Part shown: positions 2,344 to 18,545 of the stretch, piece by piece
Layout of the letters: every line of letters begins with the position of its first letter
Numbering within the stretch: position 1 is the stretch's first letter
Origin: Acrocarpospora catenulata
GTDB taxonomy: Bacteria > Actinomycetota > Actinomycetes > Streptosporangiales > Streptosporangiaceae
Direction: 5' to 3'
Length of the DNA stretch: 64,000 nucleotides
Assembly: GCF_018476525.1 (NCBI RefSeq)
Contig: NZ_JAHCST010000051.1
Location: 1-64,000 of the forward strand
Translations under genes and position numbers: made by a program
Notes under the pieces: generated by a model
The model's database searches: none
What the model saw: only the letters and a program-made list of their open reading frames with translations
Told to the model about the DNA's origin: nothing

Positions 2344-3036
2344 ATGGGCGCACACCGGATTCTGGTGGTGGACGACGACCCGGCGATCCTGCGAGTGCTC
2401 CGGCGCGGGCTTACCTTGGAGGGTTTCTCCGTGGAGGCCGCCGGCAGCGGCCATACCGCAGTGGATATCGCCGGTCGGGTCGATGCCATCGTCCTGGACG
2501 TCTCGATGCCCGGCATGTCGGGCATCGAGGTGTGCGCCGAACTGCGCCGCCGCGGTTCCGAGGTGCCGATCCTGATGTTGTCGGCCCTGGACGAGGTGGC
2601 CGACCGCGTGGCCGGCCTGACGGCGGGGGCCGACGACTACATGGTCAAGCCTTTCGACCTGACCGAGCTGGCGCTGCGGCTGCGGGCCCTGCTGCGCAGG
2701 TCCGGCGCCACCGCCGCGGGGGCCGTCGGCTCGGCCATCAGGGTCGGCGACCTGGTCCTGGACGTAGACGGCCGCGACGCGGTCTTCGGCGGCAGGACGC
2801 TGGTCCTGACCAGGCGCGAGTTCGACCTGCTCGAGGTGCTGGCCAGGAACGCCGGCATCGTCCTGTCCCGCGAGGTGCTGCTGGAACGGGTCTGGGGTTA
2901 CGACTTCGCGGTCACCCACAACGCGGTCGAGACGTTCATCGGCTACCTGCGCCGCAAGCTGGAGGCCGCCGGCGAGCCGCGCATCCTGGAGACGGTCAGG
3001 GGCGTGGGCTACGTCCTGCGGGGCCGTCCGTCATGA
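2344..3036 (+). CDS. OmpR/PhoB-family response regulator
   Basis: 230 residues; ATG 2344 follows GGAGGAGGAAG. The receiver domain (1-120) has the acidic pocket VVDDD, phosphoacceptor Asp52 in VLDVSMPGMSG, and the conserved Lys in MVKPFD. The C-terminal winged helix (about 135-228) has the recognition region NAVETFIGYLRRKL and ends VRGVGYVLRG, as in OmpR proteins. Its stop overlaps the kinase start (ATGA, 3033-3036), so the two are translationally coupled. The target genes are not shown by the sequence; the CBM2 glycosidase directly downstream is a candidate. Confidence 0.95.
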   Translation: MGAHRILVVDDDPAILRVLRRGLTLEGFSVEAAGSGHTAVDIAGRVDAIVLDVSMPGMSGIEVCAELRRRGSEVPILMLSALDEVADRVAGLTAGADDYMVKPFDLTELALRLRALLRRSGATAAGAVGSAIRVGDLVLDVDGRDAVFGGRTLVLTRREFDLLEVLARNAGIVLSREVLLERVWGYDFAVTHNAVETFIGYLRRKLEAAGEPRILETVRGVGYVLRGRPS

Positions 3037-4454
3037 GGCTGTCGACCCGGTTCGCCCTGTGCGTGGCCATCGTGGTCCCGTTGCTGGTCGGCCTGTCGGG
3101 CCTGCTGGTCGTCCGCCTGTCGGCCGACGATCTGCGCGCTGGGCGTGATTTGCGGCTGGTCCAGCGCGTACAGGCCCTCAAACCGCTCGCCCTGACGTAC
3201 GCCCAGCGCGAGGGCGCCCCCGCCCGCGCGGCCAGGACTCGCATCACGGCGACCACCGGCCAGACGGCGGAGGGCGTCTACGTGGCCCCCGCCAGGGGCG
3301 AAGCGCTGATCATGGGTACCGTCCCGGCGTCCCTGCCCCCGCCGGAGCCCGGCCCCGCGACCTCGCCGGACGGCGCCTGGCGTTACGCGAGCACCACCCT
3401 GGGCGTCAACGGCAGGCGGGGCCGCCTCTGGGTCTTCGAACAGGAGGCCCCGCTGGCCGACCAGATCTCCCACCTGTACCGCAGGCACCTGATCGTGACG
3501 CTGATCGCCCTGGTGGTCGGCGCCGCGGCGGGCCTGGCCCTCGGCCGTTTCGCGCTGCGCCCGCTCACCCGCCTGACGAAGGACGCGGCGGCCGTGGACG
3601 TACGCAACGGGGAGGGCCGCCTCACCCGCCACTCGCGTGTGCCGGAGATCGACGAGCTGGCCGGCCTGGTGAACGGCATCCTGGACCGCCGCGACGAGGC
3701 CGTGCACCGGACCGCGGAGGCCCTGGACACGGCCAGCGCCTTCGCCGCGACCGCCGCCCACGAACTGCGCACCCCGTTGACGAGCATGGGCGCCAACATC
3801 GCCCTGCTGAAATATCCCAACCTGCCGCCGGAGGACCGCGAGGAGGTCATCCGCGACCTGGCCGGCGAGCAGGCCCGCGTGGAACGCCTGATCACCATGC
3901 TGCGGCAGCTGGCCAGGGGCGAGCTGATGGAACCCGAGTCGCTGACCGAGGTCGATCTGGCGGGCCTGAGCGGAGTGGCCGTGAAGGAGGCCACCCGCCG
4001 CCACCCGCACGCGCGGATCGTCGCCCACCTGCCCGACGAGGCGATGGTCCGCGGCTGGCCCGAGGGCCTGCGCATGATCGTCGACAACCTCCTGGACAAC
4101 GCGGCCGTGCACGGCGTCGGCCCGCTGGGCACCGTACGCATCGACCTGACGGTGCGGGTGGAGGGCACCTTCGCCCTCCTGCGGGTCGCCGACGACGGTC
4201 CCGGCATGCCCCCGGAGATCCACCAGGAGGCCTTCAACCGCTTCAGCCGCCGGGCCGGCAGCCCCGGCTCCGGCCTGGGCCTCACCCTGATCCACCAGCA
4301 GGTCGTCCTGCACGGCGGCAAGGTGGAGATCGAGCCCCGGTCCCAGGCCCGCCCCGGCACGGGTCTGTCGGTGTTGGTGCAGCTGCCCGTCTCCTGGCGC
4401 CCGGACGGCCCCAGCGACGGCCTGTCCTGGTTGTCGGCGCACCGGAAACCCTAG
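3033..4454 (+). CDS. Membrane sensor histidine kinase, partner of the upstream regulator
   Basis: 473 residues. A membrane segment at 9-28, an extracytoplasmic loop of about 120 residues, a second segment near 153-174, a HAMP-like linker, then a HisKA domain with AAHELRTPLT (His243). The ATP-binding domain shows the N box DNLLDNAAVH, G1 VADDGPGMP and G2 GSGLGLTL. Size and order are standard for kinases paired with OmpR regulators. The loop is Pro/Ala-rich with no known ligand fold. It shares four bases with the regulator gene and probably one promoter. Confidence 0.95.
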   Translation: MRLSTRFALCVAIVVPLLVGLSGLLVVRLSADDLRAGRDLRLVQRVQALKPLALTYAQREGAPARAARTRITATTGQTAEGVYVAPARGEALIMGTVPASLPPPEPGPATSPDGAWRYASTTLGVNGRRGRLWVFEQEAPLADQISHLYRRHLIVTLIALVVGAAAGLALGRFALRPLTRLTKDAAAVDVRNGEGRLTRHSRVPEIDELAGLVNGILDRRDEAVHRTAEALDTASAFAATAAHELRTPLTSMGANIALLKYPNLPPEDREEVIRDLAGEQARVERLITMLRQLARGELMEPESLTEVDLAGLSGVAVKEATRRHPHARIVAHLPDEAMVRGWPEGLRMIVDNLLDNAAVHGVGPLGTVRIDLTVRVEGTFALLRVADDGPGMPPEIHQEAFNRFSRRAGSPGSGLGLTLIHQQVVLHGGKVEIEPRSQARPGTGLSVLVQLPVSWRPDGPSDGLSWLSAHRKP

Positions 4455-4572
4455 ATCGTTTGAAACTTTCACCCCCAGTTGACGGGGGGCGCGGTGGCCC
4501 CGCAGGATCATGGTGCCTCTTGGTCAGGAGGGGGCGTCGAGTCAATGCCGCAACCCCTGGTGAGGTGTGCCG

Positions 4573-6615
4573 ATGCCGAAAGTCCCGTTACGTGCCGCGT
4601 CCGCCGTTGTGCTGACGCTGGCCGTCCTGAATGTTCCCGTGGCGTACGCCGACGAGGTCACCCCGATTCCGGTGACCGTCAACGCGCGCGCCGCCCTCGC
4701 CGCCGTCCCGGAAACCGGAATCGGCACCAACCACGCGATCTGGGACACCCATCTGGGGAGTAACGACACCGCGGACCGGCTCAAGGACGCGGGCGTCAAG
4801 CTGCTGCGTTACCCGGGCGGCTCGTACTCCGACATCTACCACTGGGCCGACCACACCGCCCCCGGCGGGTACGTCGCCCCCAACACCGATTTCGACACCT
4901 TCATCCGCGGCGCCCAGCGAACCGGAGCGCAGGCGATGGTGACCGCCAACTACGGCACCGGCACGGCCGCGGAGGCCGCCGCCTGGGTCCGCTACGCCAA
5001 CGTCACCAAGGGCTACGGCGTCAAGTACTGGGAGATCGGCAACGAGAACTACGGCAACGGCCACTACGGGGCCGACTGGGAGGCCGACAACCACGCCGAC
5101 AAGAGCCCCGCGGAGTACGCGCGCAACCTCGTCGCGTACGCCGACGCGATGAAGGCCGTGGACCCGACCATCAAGATCGGCGCCGTGCTGACCACCTCCG
5201 CCAACTGGCCTGACGGCCTGGTCGGGGGCGGCGACGCCGGCACCTGGAACAAGGTCGTGCTCTCGGCGGCCGGATCGAAGATCGACTTCGTGATCCTGCA
5301 CTGGTACCCGGGCGCCTTCGACAAGGCCAACCAGATCTCCGACATGATCTACCTCACCCGCAGGCAGATCGCCGCGTACGCCGGACCCGGCGCCGACCGG
5401 ATCGGGATCGCGATGACCGAGTTCAACACCGGGACCAGCAGCGGTGGCACCAACACCCAGCCCGGTGCGCTGGCCGCCGCCGACGCGTACGCGACGCTGC
5501 TGGCCAACGGCGTGTTCTCGGTCGACTGGTGGAACGTGCGCAACGGCATCGGCAACGTCACGCAAGTCGCCGGATACACCGACTACGGCGACTTCGGCCT
5601 GCTGTCGAGCGGGACGTGCACCTCCGACGGCAGCGTCTGCGAGCCCGCGCTGAACACCCCCTTCGCGCCGTACTACGCGCTCCAGATGATGAGCAAGTTC
5701 GCCCGCCCCGGCGACCAGTTCATCCGCGCCGCCGCCACCGGCCAGCCCAACATCGCCACGCACGCCGTCCGCCGTGCCAACGGGGACCTGGCGGTCCTGC
5801 TGATCAACACCTCGGCCGACACGTCCTACCCGGTCACGATCGGCTACTCCGGCTTCAGCCCGGCCGCGGGGGCGCCCACCGTACTGACCCACACCAACGG
5901 CGCCGCCGGCATCACCAGCACGACCGCGGGAAGCGCCACCAGCAGGACGCTGCCGCCGCTCTCGATGACCACCGTCATCGTGCGCCCCGCCACCGTACCC
6001 ACCGGGCTGCCGGGCGCGCCGGGCCAGCCGACGGTCTCCAACGTGACGGACAAGACCGCCACGATCTCCTGGCCGGCCGCCACCGCCGGCACCCGCCCGA
6101 TCGCGAAGTACGAGGTGCACCGCCAGAACGGGGCCATCAACGAGCAACTCGGTGAGACCACCGGCACCTCGTTCACCGTGAGCAACCTCAACCCGGGCAC
6201 CCGCTACACCGTCAACGTGATCGCCCGCGACAGCGGCGGCGGCGCGTCACCCGCCTCCCTGCCGCTCACCTTCACCACCGGCACCCCCGCCGCCAGTTCC
6301 TGCACGGTACGCCTGACCAACCAGGCCGACTGGGGCAACGGATACGTCGGCGGGATCGACATCACCAACAACGGCGCCCCCATGAACGGCTGGACTCTGA
6401 ACTTCGCCTGGCCCCGGTCCTGGCAGAGCCTGGGCAGCGGCTGGAGCGCCGTCTGGACCGAAACCGGCTCGAACGTCAAGGTCGTCAACGAACCCAGCAA
6501 CCCCTCACTCGCCACCGGCGCGACCGCCACGATCGGTTACGTCGGCAACTACAACGGCCCGAACGTGCTCCCTGCCGTCTTCACCCTGAACGGCACCGTC
6601 TGCACGACGCTGTAA
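4573..6615 (+). CDS. Secreted clan GH-A glycosidase with FN3 and CBM2 domains
   Basis: 680 residues from ATG 4573 (GAGG seven bases upstream; a GTG at 4567 is too close to it). A signal peptide ends near VAYADE. The catalytic domain (about 30-470) has WEIGNENYG, matching the acid/base Glu strand of arabinofuranosidase-like clan GH-A enzymes (GH51/GH39 type), and AMTEFNTG as the likely nucleophile strand. An FN3 domain (about 475-565, PGAPGQPTVSNV...) and a C-terminal family 2 carbohydrate-binding module with paired Cys and surface Trp residues (about 570-680) follow. It is likely extracellular and attacks plant cell-wall arabinan or xylan side chains; the exact family and substrate are inference. 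Confidence 0.85.
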   Translation: MPKVPLRAASAVVLTLAVLNVPVAYADEVTPIPVTVNARAALAAVPETGIGTNHAIWDTHLGSNDTADRLKDAGVKLLRYPGGSYSDIYHWADHTAPGGYVAPNTDFDTFIRGAQRTGAQAMVTANYGTGTAAEAAAWVRYANVTKGYGVKYWEIGNENYGNGHYGADWEADNHADKSPAEYARNLVAYADAMKAVDPTIKIGAVLTTSANWPDGLVGGGDAGTWNKVVLSAAGSKIDFVILHWYPGAFDKANQISDMIYLTRRQIAAYAGPGADRIGIAMTEFNTGTSSGGTNTQPGALAAADAYATLLANGVFSVDWWNVRNGIGNVTQVAGYTDYGDFGLLSSGTCTSDGSVCEPALNTPFAPYYALQMMSKFARPGDQFIRAAATGQPNIATHAVRRANGDLAVLLINTSADTSYPVTIGYSGFSPAAGAPTVLTHTNGAAGITSTTAGSATSRTLPPLSMTTVIVRPATVPTGLPGAPGQPTVSNVTDKTATISWPAATAGTRPIAKYEVHRQNGAINEQLGETTGTSFTVSNLNPGTRYTVNVIARDSGGGASPASLPLTFTTGTPAASSCTVRLTNQADWGNGYVGGIDITNNGAPMNGWTLNFAWPRSWQSLGSGWSAVWTETGSNVKVVNEPSNPSLATGATATIGYVGNYNGPNVLPAVFTLNGTVCTTL

Positions 6616-6676: not shown

Positions 6677-9112
6677 ATGCGGGCTTTATCACCCCCGAAT
6701 GATTGGACCCCGTCTGAGCGGCGGCTCTGGAGCGCATTCCGCCAAGGCACGCAACTCGACCTGGAAGGACCGAATCCGGTATCGGGTGAACCCGGCGACG
6801 AGTACTGGGGGCCGGAACGAATCATCCGCGCGGAAGCCATCTGCCACCTGCTCCTGCACGGCCCCGAGCAACTCCCCGGCAAACCCGCCCGGCTCATCCT
6901 CAAGGGCACCCGGATATCCGGCTGGCTCGACGCCGGATGCGCCGAACTGGATTCGTTCCTCTTCATCGAGTGTGTCTTCGACCGGACACCCTTTCTGAAC
7001 GACGCGAGGGCACAGTTCATCGGCTTCACCAACTGCCGGCTGCCGGGCCTGGACGCGGAACGGATCAGGTCGGGCCCGGTGTGGCTGAGTGACAACCGGC
7101 TTCTCGGACCCATCCACATGGAGGACGCCGAGATAGGCGGGGATCTCCGTATCAATGGATCGACGATCGACGCGGGGCAGGGTAACTCGGCCGTCACGCT
7201 CAATGGCGCGCACCTCGCCGGTGATCTCGACATCCGCGGTGCTCGTATCACCGGGCAGCTCAGCATGGCCACCGTACGGATCGACGGCGATCTGCTGCTG
7301 ACCAACGCCGGCATCGCCAAACCGGGTGACTGGGCACTCTATGCGCCCAAGCTCACCGTCGGCGCCTCCATCATCGGAAACTCGGGCGTGCAGGTGACGG
7401 GCGGCCTGTTCCTGGAAGGCGCCACCGCCGGCGGAGCCGTGCTGCTGGACCGCATAGAGGTGTCACGGCCCCTGGAGACCGCGCTCCATCTCGACCACTG
7501 CCGGTTCGCGCTGGATTTCAAGTGCGACGACGCCCGTATCCACGGCACGGTGCAACTCCACCAGTTGGTGTCCGGCTGTCAGGTCAGCCTGCAGCGCACC
7601 AGGGTCAGCGACGTGAAGAAGAACGAGAACGCCGTCAACGCCGACCATCTTGAAGTCGGTGGATCCGCGTACTTCGCCGACGTCGACCTGGCCGGGCCCC
7701 TTTCCCTGCATGGCGCCAGGATCGACTGCAGTCTCTCCATCGCGGGCGCCAAGCTGTCCGCCCCCGCCACGGCGGCGGCATTCAACGCCGACGGCGCGCG
7801 CGTCGGCAACCATTTCATCGCCAAGAACTGCACCTCGGACGGCGCGGTCATCCTGACCGCCATCCAGATCGACGGCAACGCGAACTTCATCGACGCCACC
7901 ATCACCAACGGCTCGGCCACCGCCCTGGACCTGCGTCGCTCCGTCATCAAAGGATCCCTGGCGGTCACCGGCTCCTTCGCCGCCACCGGCTCGGTCAAGC
8001 TCGTCGACGCCACCCTCGGCGTCGACATCAGGCTGACCGACGCCACACTGAACAACCCGCGCGGCAGAGCCCTGGCCGCCTCCGGTATGCGCGTCGCCGG
8101 CGACTTCATCGCGGACCGTTGCACCGTGCAAGGGCTGGTCGATCTGCCGAGCAGCGTGGTCGACGGCGACCTCCGGTTCGTGGACGCCACCCTGGCGGGT
8201 GTCAGCGCCGACGAGTCGTCCCGCGGCTTCGCGGTGGACGTCAAGGGTGAATGGCGCGGCCTGGCGCTGCGCTGCACGGGCTCACGGATAGCCGGCGACC
8301 TCGACTTACGCGGCGCCCGGCTGGAGCGCGAGCTGGTGATGGACAGTGCGAGCGTGAGCCGTACCGTCCGCCTCGAAGGCACTCATCTCGCCACCGAGGG
8401 CCGGTCCGTGCTGCGGGCCGACGGGCTGACCGCCGAGACGCTGGTGTTGCGGCCCGCCGCCCTGCCCGTCCGCGCTGTCTCGCTGGCGTCGGCGAACGTT
8501 CAGGAGTTGGCCGATGGAGCCACCTCCTGGCCTGTGGCGGCGCCCATCAACATCTCGGGTTTCCACTACGAACGGCTCGACTCCGACCTTCCCGTGGCCG
8601 AGCGCCTGGTGTGGCTCGAACGCGCCACGCCGACCTACGCGGCCGGGCCGTACGAGAAGCTGGCCGCCTGCCTGGAACTGGCCGGCCAGAACGCTGACGC
8701 CCGGGTGGTACGCCTGGCTTCGATCCGGCGGTCGCACCAGTCCAAGAACCTGATGATCCGGCTGTGGGGCGGCCTGCAGGACGCGGTCATCGGGTACGGC
8801 TACGCGCCCGGCCGTGCCCTCGCCATCTTCGCGTTGTTGCTGGTGGGAGCGGGCATCTGGTTCTCCCTCGGGATAGCCGACTGCCTGCCCGCGAGCCCCG
8901 GGTTGTGCCCGGTCAAGGCCGACGAACACCCCACCTGGGATCCGTGGCTGTACTCCCTCGACCTGCTGATACCGCTGATCGATCTCGGGCACGAGAAAGC
9001 CTGGGACCCGCTCGGCGCGTCCAAGGTGGTCACGATGGTGCTCGTCATGAGCGGCTGGGTGCTCACCACCACGATGATCGCCGCCGCTGGCCGTACGCTC
9101 CGCCGAACCTAG
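6677..9112 (+). CDS. Large beta-helix repeat protein with C-terminal membrane helices
   Basis: 811 residues. From about 80 to 610 it is built of short imperfect repeats of the type GDLDIRGARI, GDLRINGSTI and GDLLLTNAGI, the pattern of a right-handed beta-helix (pentapeptide- or bactofilin-like). Residues about 715-735 (ALAIFALLLVGAGIWFSLG) and 785-805 (VVTMVLVMSGWVLTTTMIAA) are membrane helices. There is no signal peptide, so the repeat domain is probably cytoplasmic and tethered at its C-terminus. Similar actinomycete proteins are sometimes labelled membrane-associated oxidoreductases, but no cofactor motif is visible here. One in-frame TTA codon occurs at 8306. Function unknown; scaffolding is a guess. 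Confidence 0.75.
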   Translation: MRALSPPNDWTPSERRLWSAFRQGTQLDLEGPNPVSGEPGDEYWGPERIIRAEAICHLLLHGPEQLPGKPARLILKGTRISGWLDAGCAELDSFLFIECVFDRTPFLNDARAQFIGFTNCRLPGLDAERIRSGPVWLSDNRLLGPIHMEDAEIGGDLRINGSTIDAGQGNSAVTLNGAHLAGDLDIRGARITGQLSMATVRIDGDLLLTNAGIAKPGDWALYAPKLTVGASIIGNSGVQVTGGLFLEGATAGGAVLLDRIEVSRPLETALHLDHCRFALDFKCDDARIHGTVQLHQLVSGCQVSLQRTRVSDVKKNENAVNADHLEVGGSAYFADVDLAGPLSLHGARIDCSLSIAGAKLSAPATAAAFNADGARVGNHFIAKNCTSDGAVILTAIQIDGNANFIDATITNGSATALDLRRSVIKGSLAVTGSFAATGSVKLVDATLGVDIRLTDATLNNPRGRALAASGMRVAGDFIADRCTVQGLVDLPSSVVDGDLRFVDATLAGVSADESSRGFAVDVKGEWRGLALRCTGSRIAGDLDLRGARLERELVMDSASVSRTVRLEGTHLATEGRSVLRADGLTAETLVLRPAALPVRAVSLASANVQELADGATSWPVAAPINISGFHYERLDSDLPVAERLVWLERATPTYAAGPYEKLAACLELAGQNADARVVRLASIRRSHQSKNLMIRLWGGLQDAVIGYGYAPGRALAIFALLLVGAGIWFSLGIADCLPASPGLCPVKADEHPTWDPWLYSLDLLIPLIDLGHEKAWDPLGASKVVTMVLVMSGWVLTTTMIAAAGRTLRRT

Positions 9113-11294: not shown

Positions 11295-12107
11295 TCAACT
11301 GCTCAGCCGGGCTGGTGTGCGGCGTGCACGCGCGGTCCAGCGCCCGTCATGGCGGTTCACCTCGATCGGGAGGTCGAAGGCGGTGGAGACGTTCTCGGTG
11401 GTGATGACCGTGTCGGCGGGACCGGCCGCGACCACGCGGCCCTCGGACAGCAGGACGGCATGGGTGGTCGTACTGGGCAGTTCTTCGAGATGGTGGGTCA
11501 CCAGGACCGAGGTGATCTCCGGGTGGGTCTCGTCGAGCAGGTCGATGGTTTCGAGAAGGTGTTCGCGGGCGGCGACGTCCAGGCCGGTGGAAGGCTCGTC
11601 CAGGAGCAGCAGCCGCGGGCCGCAGACGAGCGCGCGGGCGATGAGGGTGCGGCCGCGTTCGCCCTGGGAGAGGGTGGGCCAGCGTTCCTCGGCCTTCCCG
11701 AGGAGACCGAGGGCGGCGAGGAGGGCGTCGACCCGCGCGAGTTCCTCCGCGTGGGGCTGCCAGCGGAGCGGCGTTTCGATGGTGCCGGTGATCCCGGTGA
11801 GGACGATGTCCCGAATGGTCAGCGGTGAGGTCAGCGGATGACGCGGGTTGACGTGCCCGATCATGCGGCGCAGCGCCTGGAGCTCGACCCGTCCGAGTTG
11901 CTTGCCGAGCACGTGGACGGTGCCCGAGGTGGGATGGGTGACCGCGCCGCAGAAGCCCAGGATGGTGCTCTTGCCGGAGCCGTTCGGACCGAGCAACGCC
12001 CAGTGCTCGCCCTGGCGCACGGTGAAGGTGATGCCGTGCAGGATCTCCTTGCGCTCCCGGCGGTAGGTCACATCCCTCAGTTCCAGTACCGTCGCCGGCG
12101 CGCTCAT
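11295..12107 (-). CDS. ABC transporter ATP-binding protein (orphan)
   Basis: 270 residues with Walker A GPNGSGKST, Q-loop region, signature LSQGERGR, Walker B LLLLDEPSTGLD and switch His in LVTHHLEEL. One ABC domain, no membrane segments and no permease gene adjacent. The sequence style resembles ModF-like or metal-uptake ATPases, but the substrate is not evident. Its start overlaps the GntR stop (ATGA at 12104-12107), so it is co-transcribed with, and probably controlled by, that regulator. Confidence 0.88.
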   Translation of the reverse strand: MSAPATVLELRDVTYRRERKEILHGITFTVRQGEHWALLGPNGSGKSTILGFCGAVTHPTSGTVHVLGKQLGRVELQALRRMIGHVNPRHPLTSPLTIRDIVLTGITGTIETPLRWQPHAEELARVDALLAALGLLGKAEERWPTLSQGERGRTLIARALVCGPRLLLLDEPSTGLDVAAREHLLETIDLLDETHPEITSVLVTHHLEELPSTTTHAVLLSEGRVVAAGPADTVITTENVSTAFDLPIEVNRHDGRWTARARRTPARLSS

Positions 12108-12775
12108 GCGAAGGCTCGCTTCAGGGCCGTCAGGTGGGAACGGCTGAACTCGGCGGCGGCACGCAGGTCGCGGTCCGCGATCGCCGTCACCAGATCCGCG
12201 TGCGCGGCGTGGTCGGCCTCCGGCGAGGCGAGCGGGCGAATCCTGAGCATGTCGACCATCGCCCGGCGAACCCGGGGCACGAAGCTGTCGAACATCTCGA
12301 CGAGCACGTCGTTGTGCGCCGCGACGATCACCGTACGGTGGAAGGCCATGTCCGCGTCGACGTGCTCCTCGACAGCCCGCCCGGTTCCCTCGCGTCCCGC
12401 CAGCGCCCGCCTGATCGCCCGCAGGTCGGCGGGCGTACGTCGCTCGGCCGCCAGCGCCGCCGCCTCCGCCTCGATGGCGATCCTGGCCTCAAGGACGGAG
12501 ACCACGGAGGCGCGCCGGAGGATCGTGTCCCAGTCCTCGGTGACGTCGACCGCGGTGACGAAGACCCCCGCCCCCTGCCGGGAGTCGAGCACGCCCTTCC
12601 CGACGAGCTCACGAACGGCCTCCCGCAGCGTCGACCGCCCCACTCCCAACCAGGCTGCCAACGTGGTCTCACCGGGAAGCCTGTGCCCCAACGGCCACTC
12701 ACCCGAACGGATCCGCTCCAGCAGCACATCCGCCGTCTGCGCCGCCAGCGGGTGCCGCTGCACAGATGAGGCCAT
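12104..12775 (-). CDS. FadR-type GntR transcriptional regulator
   Basis: 223 residues from ATG 12775, with AGGAGGTG eight bases upstream. N-terminal winged helix with LPGETTLAAWLGVGRSTLREAVREL; C-terminal all-helical FCD domain with acidic/His ligand positions (DADMAFHRTV, AHADLVTAI). First gene of a two-gene unit with the ABC ATPase; a repressor whose ligand is transported or sensed through that ATPase is plausible. Confidence 0.92.
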   Translation of the reverse strand: MASSVQRHPLAAQTADVLLERIRSGEWPLGHRLPGETTLAAWLGVGRSTLREAVRELVGKGVLDSRQGAGVFVTAVDVTEDWDTILRRASVVSVLEARIAIEAEAAALAAERRTPADLRAIRRALAGREGTGRAVEEHVDADMAFHRTVIVAAHNDVLVEMFDSFVPRVRRAMVDMLRIRPLASPEADHAAHADLVTAIADRDLRAAAEFSRSHLTALKRAFA

Positions 12776-12881: not shown

Positions 12882-13769
12882 GTGGACTGGGTGGAGCGGA
12901 TCGCCGGCATCAAGCGGTGGCGGCGCGGTGACGAGCGGGCACCGCACAAGCCATTGCTGCTCCTGTACGCGCTGGGCCGGTTCCAGCACGACGGCGGCCA
13001 GCCGATCCCCTTCAGCGTGGCCGAGAAGGATCTGAGGCGCCTGCTGGTGGAGTTCGGCCCCGCCCGTTCCACCAGCCCCGGCTACCCCTTCCACCATCTG
13101 ACCACCGACGGGCTCTGGCTGGTCGACACGGCCGACGGCGCGGGCAGCCCCGGCCCGGGGGTGACCGGGCTGCGGAACGCCCAGGCGGCCGGACGCCTCC
13201 ACCCCGACCTGGTACGCGCGCTACGCGAGGACTCCCTGCTGGCCGCCCGGCTGGCCCGGCTCCTGCTGGAAACCAACTTCGAGCCGTCTCTGCACCGCGA
13301 CATCTGCCAGCTCACCGGCCTCGACCTGGACGACTCCGTCCCCACGCCGACCTCCGCGCACAACCCGCCGCGTGACCCCCGCTTCCGGGAGCGTGTGATG
13401 ATCGCGTACGAGTACCGGTGCGCGTTCTGCGCGTACAGCGGCTGGATCGACGGAATGGCCGTCGGCCTGGACGCGGCGCATGTCCGCTGGTGGGCCTTCC
13501 AGGGCCCGGACGACCTGGGCAACGGCCTGTGCCTGTGCTCCATCCACCACAAGCTGTTCGACAAGGGCGTCCTGGGGCTCACCCAGGACCGGACGATCAC
13601 CGTCTCGCAGAAGTTCGTCGCGCACACGCCCACCGCACAGCAGTGGGTGCTCTCGCTGGTCGGCCGCCCCGCGCTGACTCCCCAACCCGGGCTGACCCCC
13701 GTCGAGATCGCACACATCGACTGGCACACCAGCCAGGTCTTCCGCGCCCCGGCCCGCCTGGCAGCCTGA
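12882..13769 (+). CDS. Type IV restriction endonuclease, sulfur-binding domain plus HNH
   Basis: 295 residues from GTG 12882; no Shine-Dalgarno is visible, so it may be leaderless. The N-terminal region has RAPHKPLLLLYALGRF and LLVEFGPARSTSPGYPF...LTTDGLW, hallmarks of the sulfur-binding domain of ScoMcrA-type enzymes that recognise phosphorothioated DNA. The C-terminal HNH nuclease has CAFC (180-183), AAH at 200, Asn214 and HHKLFDKG near 222, in the layout of the same family. Such enzymes cut DNA carrying foreign phosphorothioate or methyl marks. No dnd or ssp genes are in view, consistent with a stand-alone defence gene. It converges on the methyltransferase gene 12 bases away. Confidence 0.85.
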   Translation: MDWVERIAGIKRWRRGDERAPHKPLLLLYALGRFQHDGGQPIPFSVAEKDLRRLLVEFGPARSTSPGYPFHHLTTDGLWLVDTADGAGSPGPGVTGLRNAQAAGRLHPDLVRALREDSLLAARLARLLLETNFEPSLHRDICQLTGLDLDDSVPTPTSAHNPPRDPRFRERVMIAYEYRCAFCAYSGWIDGMAVGLDAAHVRWWAFQGPDDLGNGLCLCSIHHKLFDKGVLGLTQDRTITVSQKFVAHTPTAQQWVLSLVGRPALTPQPGLTPVEIAHIDWHTSQVFRAPARLAA

Positions 13770-17390: not shown

Positions 17391-18290
17391 TTACCGGTGC
17401 TGCGGGGTGTCCGCCAAGATGCGTTCCAGGGTGAGTTTGCCCATCCGGCTCATGACCGGATTGGTTTCGAGGTAATACCAGACAACCCCCATCGCCTGTA
17501 TGAAGGCCCACGCTTTGCCTCGCTCCCATTCGAGGTCGTCGCACCCGAGGTCCAGGCGGAGCACCTCTCGCGGCCCGGCCTCGAGCAGATGCCAGGCACC
17601 CACGAGATCCACAGCAGGGTCGGCCGGCCCGAAGCCGCCAACGTCGAGAATCCCGGCCAGCCGCCCGGCGGACACAAGCACGTTGCCGGGAATCAGATCA
17701 CCGTGGGTCATCACGTCGGCCGCTTTGCCCGGCAGACTCCGCAAGTCTTTCCACATTCGGCGAAGCCGTGGAACGTCCAGGAGTGCTTCACTGTGCTCGA
17801 AACAGGTTTCCATCCACCCGTCGTGGGTTTGAAGGTCGCCGCCTCGACCGTTGCCACCAAACGTGCGGCCACGCGTGTCGATTGTGCGCAGATCGTTGAT
17901 GAGATCGGCCATGTCCTGCGCAAATGCGACTGATTCACCGGGGTCCTCGTCGGTGGCCACGACGCCGGCCAGCCAAGTCTGCACCGACCACGGCAGCGGA
18001 TATCCCGCCCCCGGTTCACCGAGCGCGATCGGTTCCGGCGTGGGAAACCGCGTGCGACCCATCAGCTCGCGGGCTGCTTCCGCTTCGGCCTCCAGCCCTC
18101 GCCGCGTCGACTCGACAGGCCCAGGCAGTAGCGGAAACCGAGCTGCGAACCGGTCGCCTATGCGAAAGATGGCGTTGACCGTCCCCTGAGCGGCGATGCT
18201 CGTGACAGGCAGGCTCCGCCACTCCGGAAACTGCTCATCCACCAACATGCGCACTGTCTCAGGCGACACCGTCAGCTGGTCGGCATGCAT
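17391..18290 (-). CDS. Aminoglycoside phosphotransferase-family kinase
   Basis: 299 residues from ATG 18290 (an upstream in-frame start exists at 18332). Catalytic loop THGDLIPGNVLV matches the HGDxxPxN Brenner motif; GILDVGGFGPADPAVDL carries the metal-binding Asp; the N-lobe has FRIGDRFAARFP with a Lys-equivalent position replaced by Arg. The family phosphorylates antibiotics, homoserine, choline and other alcohols. No resistance cluster surrounds it, so an antibiotic substrate is only one possibility. Confidence 0.88.
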   Translation of the reverse strand: MHADQLTVSPETVRMLVDEQFPEWRSLPVTSIAAQGTVNAIFRIGDRFAARFPLLPGPVESTRRGLEAEAEAARELMGRTRFPTPEPIALGEPGAGYPLPWSVQTWLAGVVATDEDPGESVAFAQDMADLINDLRTIDTRGRTFGGNGRGGDLQTHDGWMETCFEHSEALLDVPRLRRMWKDLRSLPGKAADVMTHGDLIPGNVLVSAGRLAGILDVGGFGPADPAVDLVGAWHLLEAGPREVLRLDLGCDDLEWERGKAWAFIQAMGVVWYYLETNPVMSRMGKLTLERILADTPQHR

Positions 18291-18545
18291 CTTCACCCCA
18301 AGAGCGTTCCGCGTCCCAGCCTCCTGCCGCAACGCGTTTTCCGCCCGCCTGGTCTCCCGGCCGCTTGACTACCCAGCACGCATCCGCCGGGCCCCCCGCC
18401 CCACCGCAGAGCAGCAGCGGCCCGGCGACGAAGCACCTCTACGCTGCCAACGACGGCAGCCGGAGTTCTCGGAATGTTGTGGCACCGCAATTCCGAGAAA
18501 CATTGTCGTAGTGCATGTCCGTTGACAGGCGATCGTGGAAACGGA

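Follow-up and report, generated by a model that had tools for sequence, protein, structure and literature searches.

A predicted phosphorothioate-dependent SBD-HNH restriction endonuclease encoded by a lone gene of Acrocarpospora catenulata, and the occurrence of its relatives in genomes with dnd genes

We analysed a stretch of 64,000 nucleotides (hereafter the window) covering positions 1 to 64,000 of contig NZ_JAHCST010000051.1 of Acrocarpospora catenulata (GCF_018476525.1), focusing on a gene that had been predicted from the DNA letters to encode a stand-alone restriction enzyme made of a sulfur-binding domain (SBD) and an HNH nuclease domain (Table 1). The coordinates given in this original prediction are right, as they delimit an open frame of 295 residues on the forward strand. 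In a mechanical list of open reading frames (ORFs) the frame stretches further upstream, to position 11838. Since this extension covers a GntR-family gene of the opposite strand (12107-12775, identified by a Pfam scan), and since position 1 of the family profile NF045808 falls on residue 1 of the protein, the GTG at 12882 is likely the true start. Matches begin at this residue in 48 of 53 named relatives. The first methionine is kept in at least 90% of the rows of alignment A1, which comprises 40 sequences (the window protein and 39 of the 53 named-relative loci) and where a first codon GTG or TTG was read as methionine.

Table 1. Position of the SBD-HNH gene, its predicted domains and its putative functional residues in the window.
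Feature	Position	Strand	Description or basis
SBD-HNH gene	12882..13769	+	295 aa, GTG start, unbroken frame; predicted phosphorothioate-dependent type IV restriction endonuclease
Sulfur-binding domain, ~residues 1-151	12882..13334	+	Model on the ScoMcrA SBD-phosphorothioate DNA complex 5zmo_A: Z 18.2, rmsd 2.5, 148 residues
Sulfur pocket, first arm, His22-Lys23-Pro24 (= ScoMcrA H116-R117-P118)	12945..12953	+	Pairwise alignment
Sulfur pocket, second arm, Tyr68-Pro69-Phe70-His71-His72 (= ScoMcrA Y164-P165 ... A168)	13083..13097	+	Pairwise alignment
Segment around the putative base-contacting loop, ~residues 84-99	13131..13178	+	Alignment with 7cc9 and 5zmo; unlike ScoMcrA and SprMcrA
HNH nuclease domain, ~residues 163-294	13368..13763	+	TagI 6ghs: Z 15.0, rmsd 2.5, 115 residues; Pfam HNH_2
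Zinc ligands C180, C183, C219, H222 (CxxC + CxxH); catalytic H200, N214, H223	13419..13550	+	Alignment

The only NCBIfam family assigned to the protein by hmmscan is NF045808 (phosphorothioated DNA-binding restriction endonuclease), with 336.8 bits (E 8.4e-101) for a curated cut-off of 180. The match runs end to end, i.e., profile positions 1-284 of 284 lie on residues 1-288 of 295. The Pfam scan gave HNH_2 at residues 183-232 (42.4 bits) and no other family up to an E-value of 1, SRA included, and PADLOC gave weaker matches to HNH and type IV models. When the protein was compared with the PDB sequences using phmmer, residues 2-125 matched the SBDs of ScoMcrA (5zmm, 5zmo, 5zmn) and SprMcrA (7cc9, 7ccj, 7ccd), and residues 165-239 matched the HNH domain of TagI. 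A profile of 40 sequences strengthened the PDB match and recovered the same SBD chains over residues 2-135. The AlphaFold2 model, built from the 40 sequences of A1 without templates, has a mean predicted local distance difference test (pLDDT) of 88.5 and a predicted template modelling score (pTM) of 0.85, and its best matches in Foldseek are ScoMcrA, SprMcrA, VcaM4I, and TagI. Residues 1-152 of the model superpose on SprMcrA 7ccd with a Z of 17.1 and a root-mean-square deviation (rmsd) of 3.0 over 151 residues. The SBD fold also resembles 8h0l (Z 13.3), and ORC winged-helix chains appear only from Z 7.8 down. The N-terminal motifs thus belong to a predicted phosphorothioate-recognising domain, as had been proposed, judging from both fold and sequence, and the HNH end is confirmed by HNH_2, by the fold of TagI, and by the presence of the catalytic and zinc residues.

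The two domains are separated by eleven residues. As together they fill the 295 residues, there is no room for an SRA domain and, according to the profiles and the model, the protein has none. This matters for the suggestion in the original prediction to look for cleavage of Dcm-methylated DNA, which is not expected because the domain used by ScoMcrA for modified cytosine is missing. The resemblance of the SBD to that of ScoMcrA (Z 18.2), an enzyme that does cut Dcm-methylated DNA (PMC3009677; here and below, citations concern parts of the papers and not their whole content), could be taken to mean that the window enzyme does so too. We find this hardly credible for a protein of 295 residues, against 561 for ScoMcrA (5zmm_A), in which an SBD at 1-151 and an HNH domain at 163-294 leave no space and where Pfam finds only HNH_2.

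The residues expected for sulfur recognition and catalysis are in place. The sulfur pocket of ScoMcrA is formed by H116, R117, Y164, P165, and A168, and its HNH residues are H508, N522, and H531 (PMC6224610). Most homologues have a lysine instead of R117, a replacement that had no appreciable effect on binding in that study. Conservation was counted in an alignment of 69 rows comprising NF045808 matches of at least 240 bits, with some duplicate genomes, and leaving out matches below 240 bits as well as L001, which is a copy of the window. The pocket is nearly invariant: H22 (67 of 67 readable rows) and Y68 (68 of 68) never vary, and K23 (66 of 67) and P69 (67 of 68) differ once each. The same is true of the nuclease, with C180, C183, N214, C219, H222, and H223 in all 69 rows and H200 in 68. 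A single row, L081, accounts for the deviations at K23, P69, and H200. Once the HNH domains are aligned, H200, N214, and H223 have the same spacing as the ScoMcrA triad, and the zinc ligands are arranged like those of EcoWI and its relatives, in a CxxC and a CxxH motif (PMC7461809).

The gene stands alone in its genome (10.29 Mb in 181 contigs, 98.4% complete), where it is the sole match to NF045808. The DndC and DndE profiles have no match there, in an assembly whose completeness and 181 contigs leave room for a missing stretch, and the two hits to DndD, which extend over 53 and 71 of its 650 positions, do not come near the cut-off. DndC and SspD are members of the PAPS-reductase superfamily, and the genes of this family found in the genome are CysH and CysD only, SspBCD not having been searched by name. 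None of the 14 window genes scanned, four of them also by PADLOC, belongs to a dnd or ssp family. Hence, the earlier statement that no such modification genes lie nearby stands, and the genome-wide search for dnd genes that it called for shows that the gene is not a Dnd-associated module. The neighbours do not look like partners either. For eight of ten neighbouring window genes there is no match in the 149 loci of relatives, a set with some duplicates (genomes present in both samples) and some incomplete loci. The two others match at the level of the family only, the GntR regulator in 3 and an ABC ATPase in 5 of the 149 loci (28-34% identity), and were rejected as partners. So was the neighbouring methyltransferase, a generic class I S-adenosylmethionine enzyme according to Pfam that has no match near any of the 149 loci, in line with the doubt expressed about it from the start. 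PADLOC matches of neighbours to mad2 and mad3 were taken as generic methyltransferase and ATPase matches. When the ORFs lying up to 4 kb from 97 fetched places were clustered, no general partner emerged either: even the most frequent of the families adjacent to the SBD-HNH gene (less than 600 bp away) is present in 7 genomes only.

On the basis of sequence, model, and analogy with characterized enzymes, we estimate at roughly 85% the probability that the window protein is a solitary type IV, i.e., modification-dependent, SBD-HNH endonuclease restricting incoming phosphorothioated (PT) DNA. The full-length family match, both folds, the intact residues, and the lack of a general partner make this stand-alone type IV enzyme the best reading, as originally predicted, and by these profiles and models the gene is one more lone member of a well-described family of PT-dependent nucleases. 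Published relatives cut PT-DNA and restrict plasmids carrying dnd genes (PMC7461809, PMC6224610), which is why we predict this activity here. Such restriction is strong for EcoWI and weak for SprMcrA (PMC7461809), and it is also reported for the ScoMcrA homologues of S. gancidicus, E. coli, and M. morganii (PMC6224610). In the mechanism we propose, the N-terminal SBD would dock on a PT linkage in double-stranded DNA, where Lys23 would touch the thiophosphate and His22, Tyr68, Pro69, and the side chain of residue 72 would form the pocket taking up the sulfur. The zinc-supported HNH domain (H200, N214, H223) would then cleave on one side of the linkage, at a distance of a few bases. If the host is devoid of PT writers, DNA of phages, plasmids, or mobile islands arriving from a Dnd-modifying neighbour would be destroyed, and the host's own DNA would be spared because it has no sulfur. 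The analysis itself establishes the fold, the residues, the isolation of the gene, and the lack of dnd writer matches in the genome; that the enzyme depends on PT, cleaves close to it, and restricts DNA in the cell is expected by analogy with the relatives.

How frequent are such genes around Acrocarpospora? Of 297 genomes belonging to the order Streptosporangiales, 208 have some match to NF045808, which is over cut-off in 91 and only below it in the other 117. In a class-wide draw of 394 genomes, which shares some genomes with the order set, NF045808 is over cut-off in 22. The closest relatives of the window protein in named genomes are 72% identical to it. Four genomes of the genus were drawn: two (G000, G217) have an SBD-HNH gene over cut-off, and another (G145) has unbroken dndCDE, so genes writing PT exist close by. 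Mobile elements do not provide close relatives: 77 plasmid records match the window protein (16 of them covering at least 80% of the query) and 3 of 50,697 phage records do, none of these being close to the window gene. Among the 12 plasmid matches listed, identity is at most 39%, and the eight best, from E. coli and others, are at 33.8-39.0%. With a length of about 5 Mb, two of the listed records (H5, H9) look more like chromosomes.

According to the original prediction, dnd genes in the same genome would be incompatible with the enzyme, and active ones would refute it. This expectation has precedents, since scoMcrA and the dnd cluster of S. lividans do not survive together in experiments (PMC3009677) and since, according to Lutz et al., less than 3.6% of predicted PT-dependent enzymes have a dnd cluster next to them (PMC7461809). 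For three-domain SBD-SRA-HNH proteins, coexistence with Dnd loci has already been published (PMC10853773). For the two-domain proteins, that neighbourhood figure, in the main text of Lutz et al. without its supplement, is the only published information on coexistence that we found. We therefore looked for both systems in the 297 genomes which, being of one order, are not independent of one another. A copy was called intact when H22, K or R23, P69, H200, N214, and H223 were all present, and genomes whose NF045808 matches are all below cut-off were scored as having no copy, except for two (G086, G290) whose copies were fetched and found not to be intact. The DndC profile exceeds its cut-off in 22 genomes. 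Ten of these carry an SBD-HNH gene over cut-off, the only copy in one of them (G096) having an arginine at position 200, which leaves nine with an intact copy (G020, G033, G204, G210, G227, G233, G261, G271, G283). Overall, 82 genomes have an intact copy, 73 of them without DndC over cut-off. The frequency of intact copies is thus 9/22 in DndC genomes vs 73/275 in the others (two-sided p 0.21). As dndD is split in G210 and as G271 has a split dndC and neither dndD nor dndE over cut-off, we removed both to consider unbroken dndCDE only, and obtained 7/20 vs 75/277 (two-sided p 0.44). A depletion of SBD-HNH genes in dnd genomes is not seen (one-sided p of 0.95 and 0.85 for the two comparisons). 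The class-wide draw points in the opposite direction, because none of its four further DndC genomes (G421, G470, G582, G616) has an SBD-HNH gene over cut-off, which is too few to conclude. In the order sampled, there is no sign of exclusion between SBD-HNH and dnd.

In two genomes the intact gene and unbroken dndCDE share a contig, the distance between them being about 23 kb in G261 (L086/L087; a 9.6 Mb contig) and about 14 kb in G283 (L089/L090), which argues against contamination in these two cases. Ten ORFs chosen between the two systems in these genomes were submitted to PADLOC, which recognised nothing beyond one cysteine desulfurase of the DndA/SspA type in G261; these ORFs came from a simple caller that may miss genes. 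In a quick LG+G4 tree of the gene, made of 93 rows (4 of the 97 places were too short and left out) and used for counting changes only, the dnd label requires 10 changes for 10 rows, one of which is a copy with Arg200. Coexistence therefore arose in scattered lineages. Four truncated or broken-looking copies, L091 (G052), L092 (G086), L093 (G082), and L097 (G292), are in genomes without DndC over cut-off, and hence the gene can be lost where no dnd system is resident. A tyrosine at position 72, which borders the sulfur pocket and is a histidine in the window protein, was considered and rejected as a mark of copies tolerating dnd. In the 69-row alignment it occurs only in the dnd genomes G261, G271, and G283. 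When all 97 places are included, it is also found in G025, G046, G055, G178, and G202, all without DndC over cut-off, i.e., in 3/9 dnd genomes vs 5/73 others (p 0.039, uncorrected), with 6 changes on the gene tree and a median p of 0.5 in paired tests. A scan of all columns for marks of coexisting copies produced better single columns than position 72, none of them beyond what is obtained by shuffling the labels (48 of 60 shuffles reached the best p).

The alleged incompatibility with dnd genes is thus no general rule for the SBD-HNH family in this order and, as intact relatives occur in dnd genomes, a resident dnd system is there no sign refuting the function. At well under even odds, we tentatively consider that the SBD-HNH enzymes of the order are compatible with resident Dnd; if both are active, this would have to be due to a PT context that the resident Dnd does not write, to silencing, or to the use of host PT as a signal. 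Were this so, with both partners active, the strict incompatibility of ScoMcrA with the dnd genes of S. lividans would not apply to the SBD-HNH family. The survey raises a question that can be tested, i.e., which sulfur contexts these enzymes read and how double carriers avoid cutting themselves, and an enzyme with a new PT context would aid the mapping of PT sites. One might go further and regard the protein as an effector that senses PT, of a kind coexisting with Dnd in this order and switched on or restrained by the PT of the host's own DNA, and not as a barrier to foreign PT-DNA. PT-sensing or PT-restrained behaviour is reported for SspE and DndI (PMC9646914, PMC11662687), SBD/wHTH-SRA-HNH proteins lie inside Dnd loci of 698 taxa (PMC10853773), and the intact relatives in the 22 dndC genomes, in the 20 with unbroken dndCDE, and on the shared contigs of G261 and G283 would fit this idea. 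We regard it as improbable, since no PT writer was found in the genome of the window, making the sensing of its own DNA impossible, and since DndC over cut-off is absent from 73 of the 82 genomes that have an intact copy, the two occurring together no more often than the background would give.

Restriction of incoming PT-DNA also has to face points that weigh against it. An intact relative in 9 of 22 dndC genomes is awkward for a simple model in which the enzyme cuts every PT site. Certain published SBD-HNH enzymes are weak or have a poor preference for PT (PMC7461809). Finally, the residues of the base-contacting loop differ from those of ScoMcrA and SprMcrA, and no counterparts of the H102-G103-D104 of SprMcrA or of the SRGRR loop of ScoMcrA (residues taken from PMC7470945 and PMC6224610) were found in the alignments of the window protein. 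Because these residues do not carry over, the target context is not readable and the PT context of the window enzyme is not predictable. The difference in the loop and the coexistence of relatives with dnd, together with the fact that truncated SprMcrA is a non-specific nickase (PMC7461809), could suggest a broad HNH nuclease, in which the SBD-like domain reads another mark or the shape of DNA and PT dependence was lost or never present. However, almost every readable row retains the His-Lys/Arg and Tyr-Pro pairs, and PT binding by ScoMcrA is weakened or abolished when its corresponding residues are changed (PMC6224610), which makes this explanation very unlikely.

The survey also revealed unusual copies of the gene. 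In a single clade, which accounts for ten of the 97 fetched places, each in a different genome, the catalytic H200 is replaced by arginine (one change on the tree): L081, L169, L170, L171, L173, L174, L175, L176, L177, and L178, in G096, G213, G144, G197, G103, G095, G223, G222, G039, and G025, respectively. P24 is changed to A, V, or S in 9 of 9 readable rows, H22 or P69 is also altered in some, and four of these genomes (G025, G039, G144, G222) have an intact copy beside the Arg200 one. The ratio of nonsynonymous to synonymous substitution rates (dN/dS) in five chosen pairs is about 0.1 to 0.4 (our own Nei-Gojobori count), which suggests that the Arg200 copies are kept by purifying selection; they are possibly pseudo-enzymes with another role. 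In addition, a second and distant SBD-HNH-like frame lies directly upstream of the canonical gene, in divergent orientation, in L006 (7086-7778, reverse strand; 27.6% identity to the window protein) and in G125 (contig C33, 41837-42553, reverse strand; 96.8 bits to NF045808). Since the canonical copies of the two are equally similar to the window protein, L006 and G125 may represent one genome.

As for the rest of the window, ten further genes were scanned with Pfam; five have no family, and none falls in mobile-element or defence families. Downstream of a histidine kinase (2532-4454) is a protein (4567-6615) in which fibronectin III and cellulose-binding (CBM_2) domains are combined. An 811-residue protein (6677-9112) contains repeats of the pentapeptide type (Pfam Pentapeptide_3) and, towards the C-terminus, hydrophobic stretches. 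An APH-family phosphotransferase (17391-18332, 88.3 bits) is encoded 3.6 kb downstream of the SBD-HNH gene.

Among known systems, the window protein is closest to the NF045808 SBD-HNH endonucleases (EcoWI, Ksp11411I, Bsp305I), whose profile it matches over its full length. The pattern published for the EcoWI type, KPxxLL ... PF ... L ... W, the CxxC/CxxH zinc finger, and the SBD-linker-HNH order (PMC7461809) are all present, this likeness being judged by the family profile and the published pattern. The five published SBD-HNH enzymes read GpsAAC/GpsTTC. SprMcrA of Streptomyces pristinaespiralis (7cc9/7ccd/7ccj) has the same two-domain layout, with an SBD 22% identical (Z 17.1), but its catalytic residues are H-N-R (PMC7461809) and those of the window protein H-N-H. 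In the alignment, the His22-Lys23 of the window protein stands opposite the Tyr-Gln of SprMcrA, and the H102-G103-D104 of the latter falls on P92-G93-V94. ScoMcrA of Streptomyces coelicolor (SBD-SRA-HNH, 5zmm/5zmn/5zmo) has the most similar SBD fold (26% identity) and the same pocket, with a lysine in place of R117. It differs by its SRA domain, by its length, by the SRGRR loop, and by the zinc cysteine C530, which is replaced by His222 in the window protein. Finally, the closest HNH fold is that of TagI (SRA-HNH, 6ghs; 27% identity over 115 residues), which recognises modified cytosine through an SRA, whereas the reader of the window protein is an SBD.
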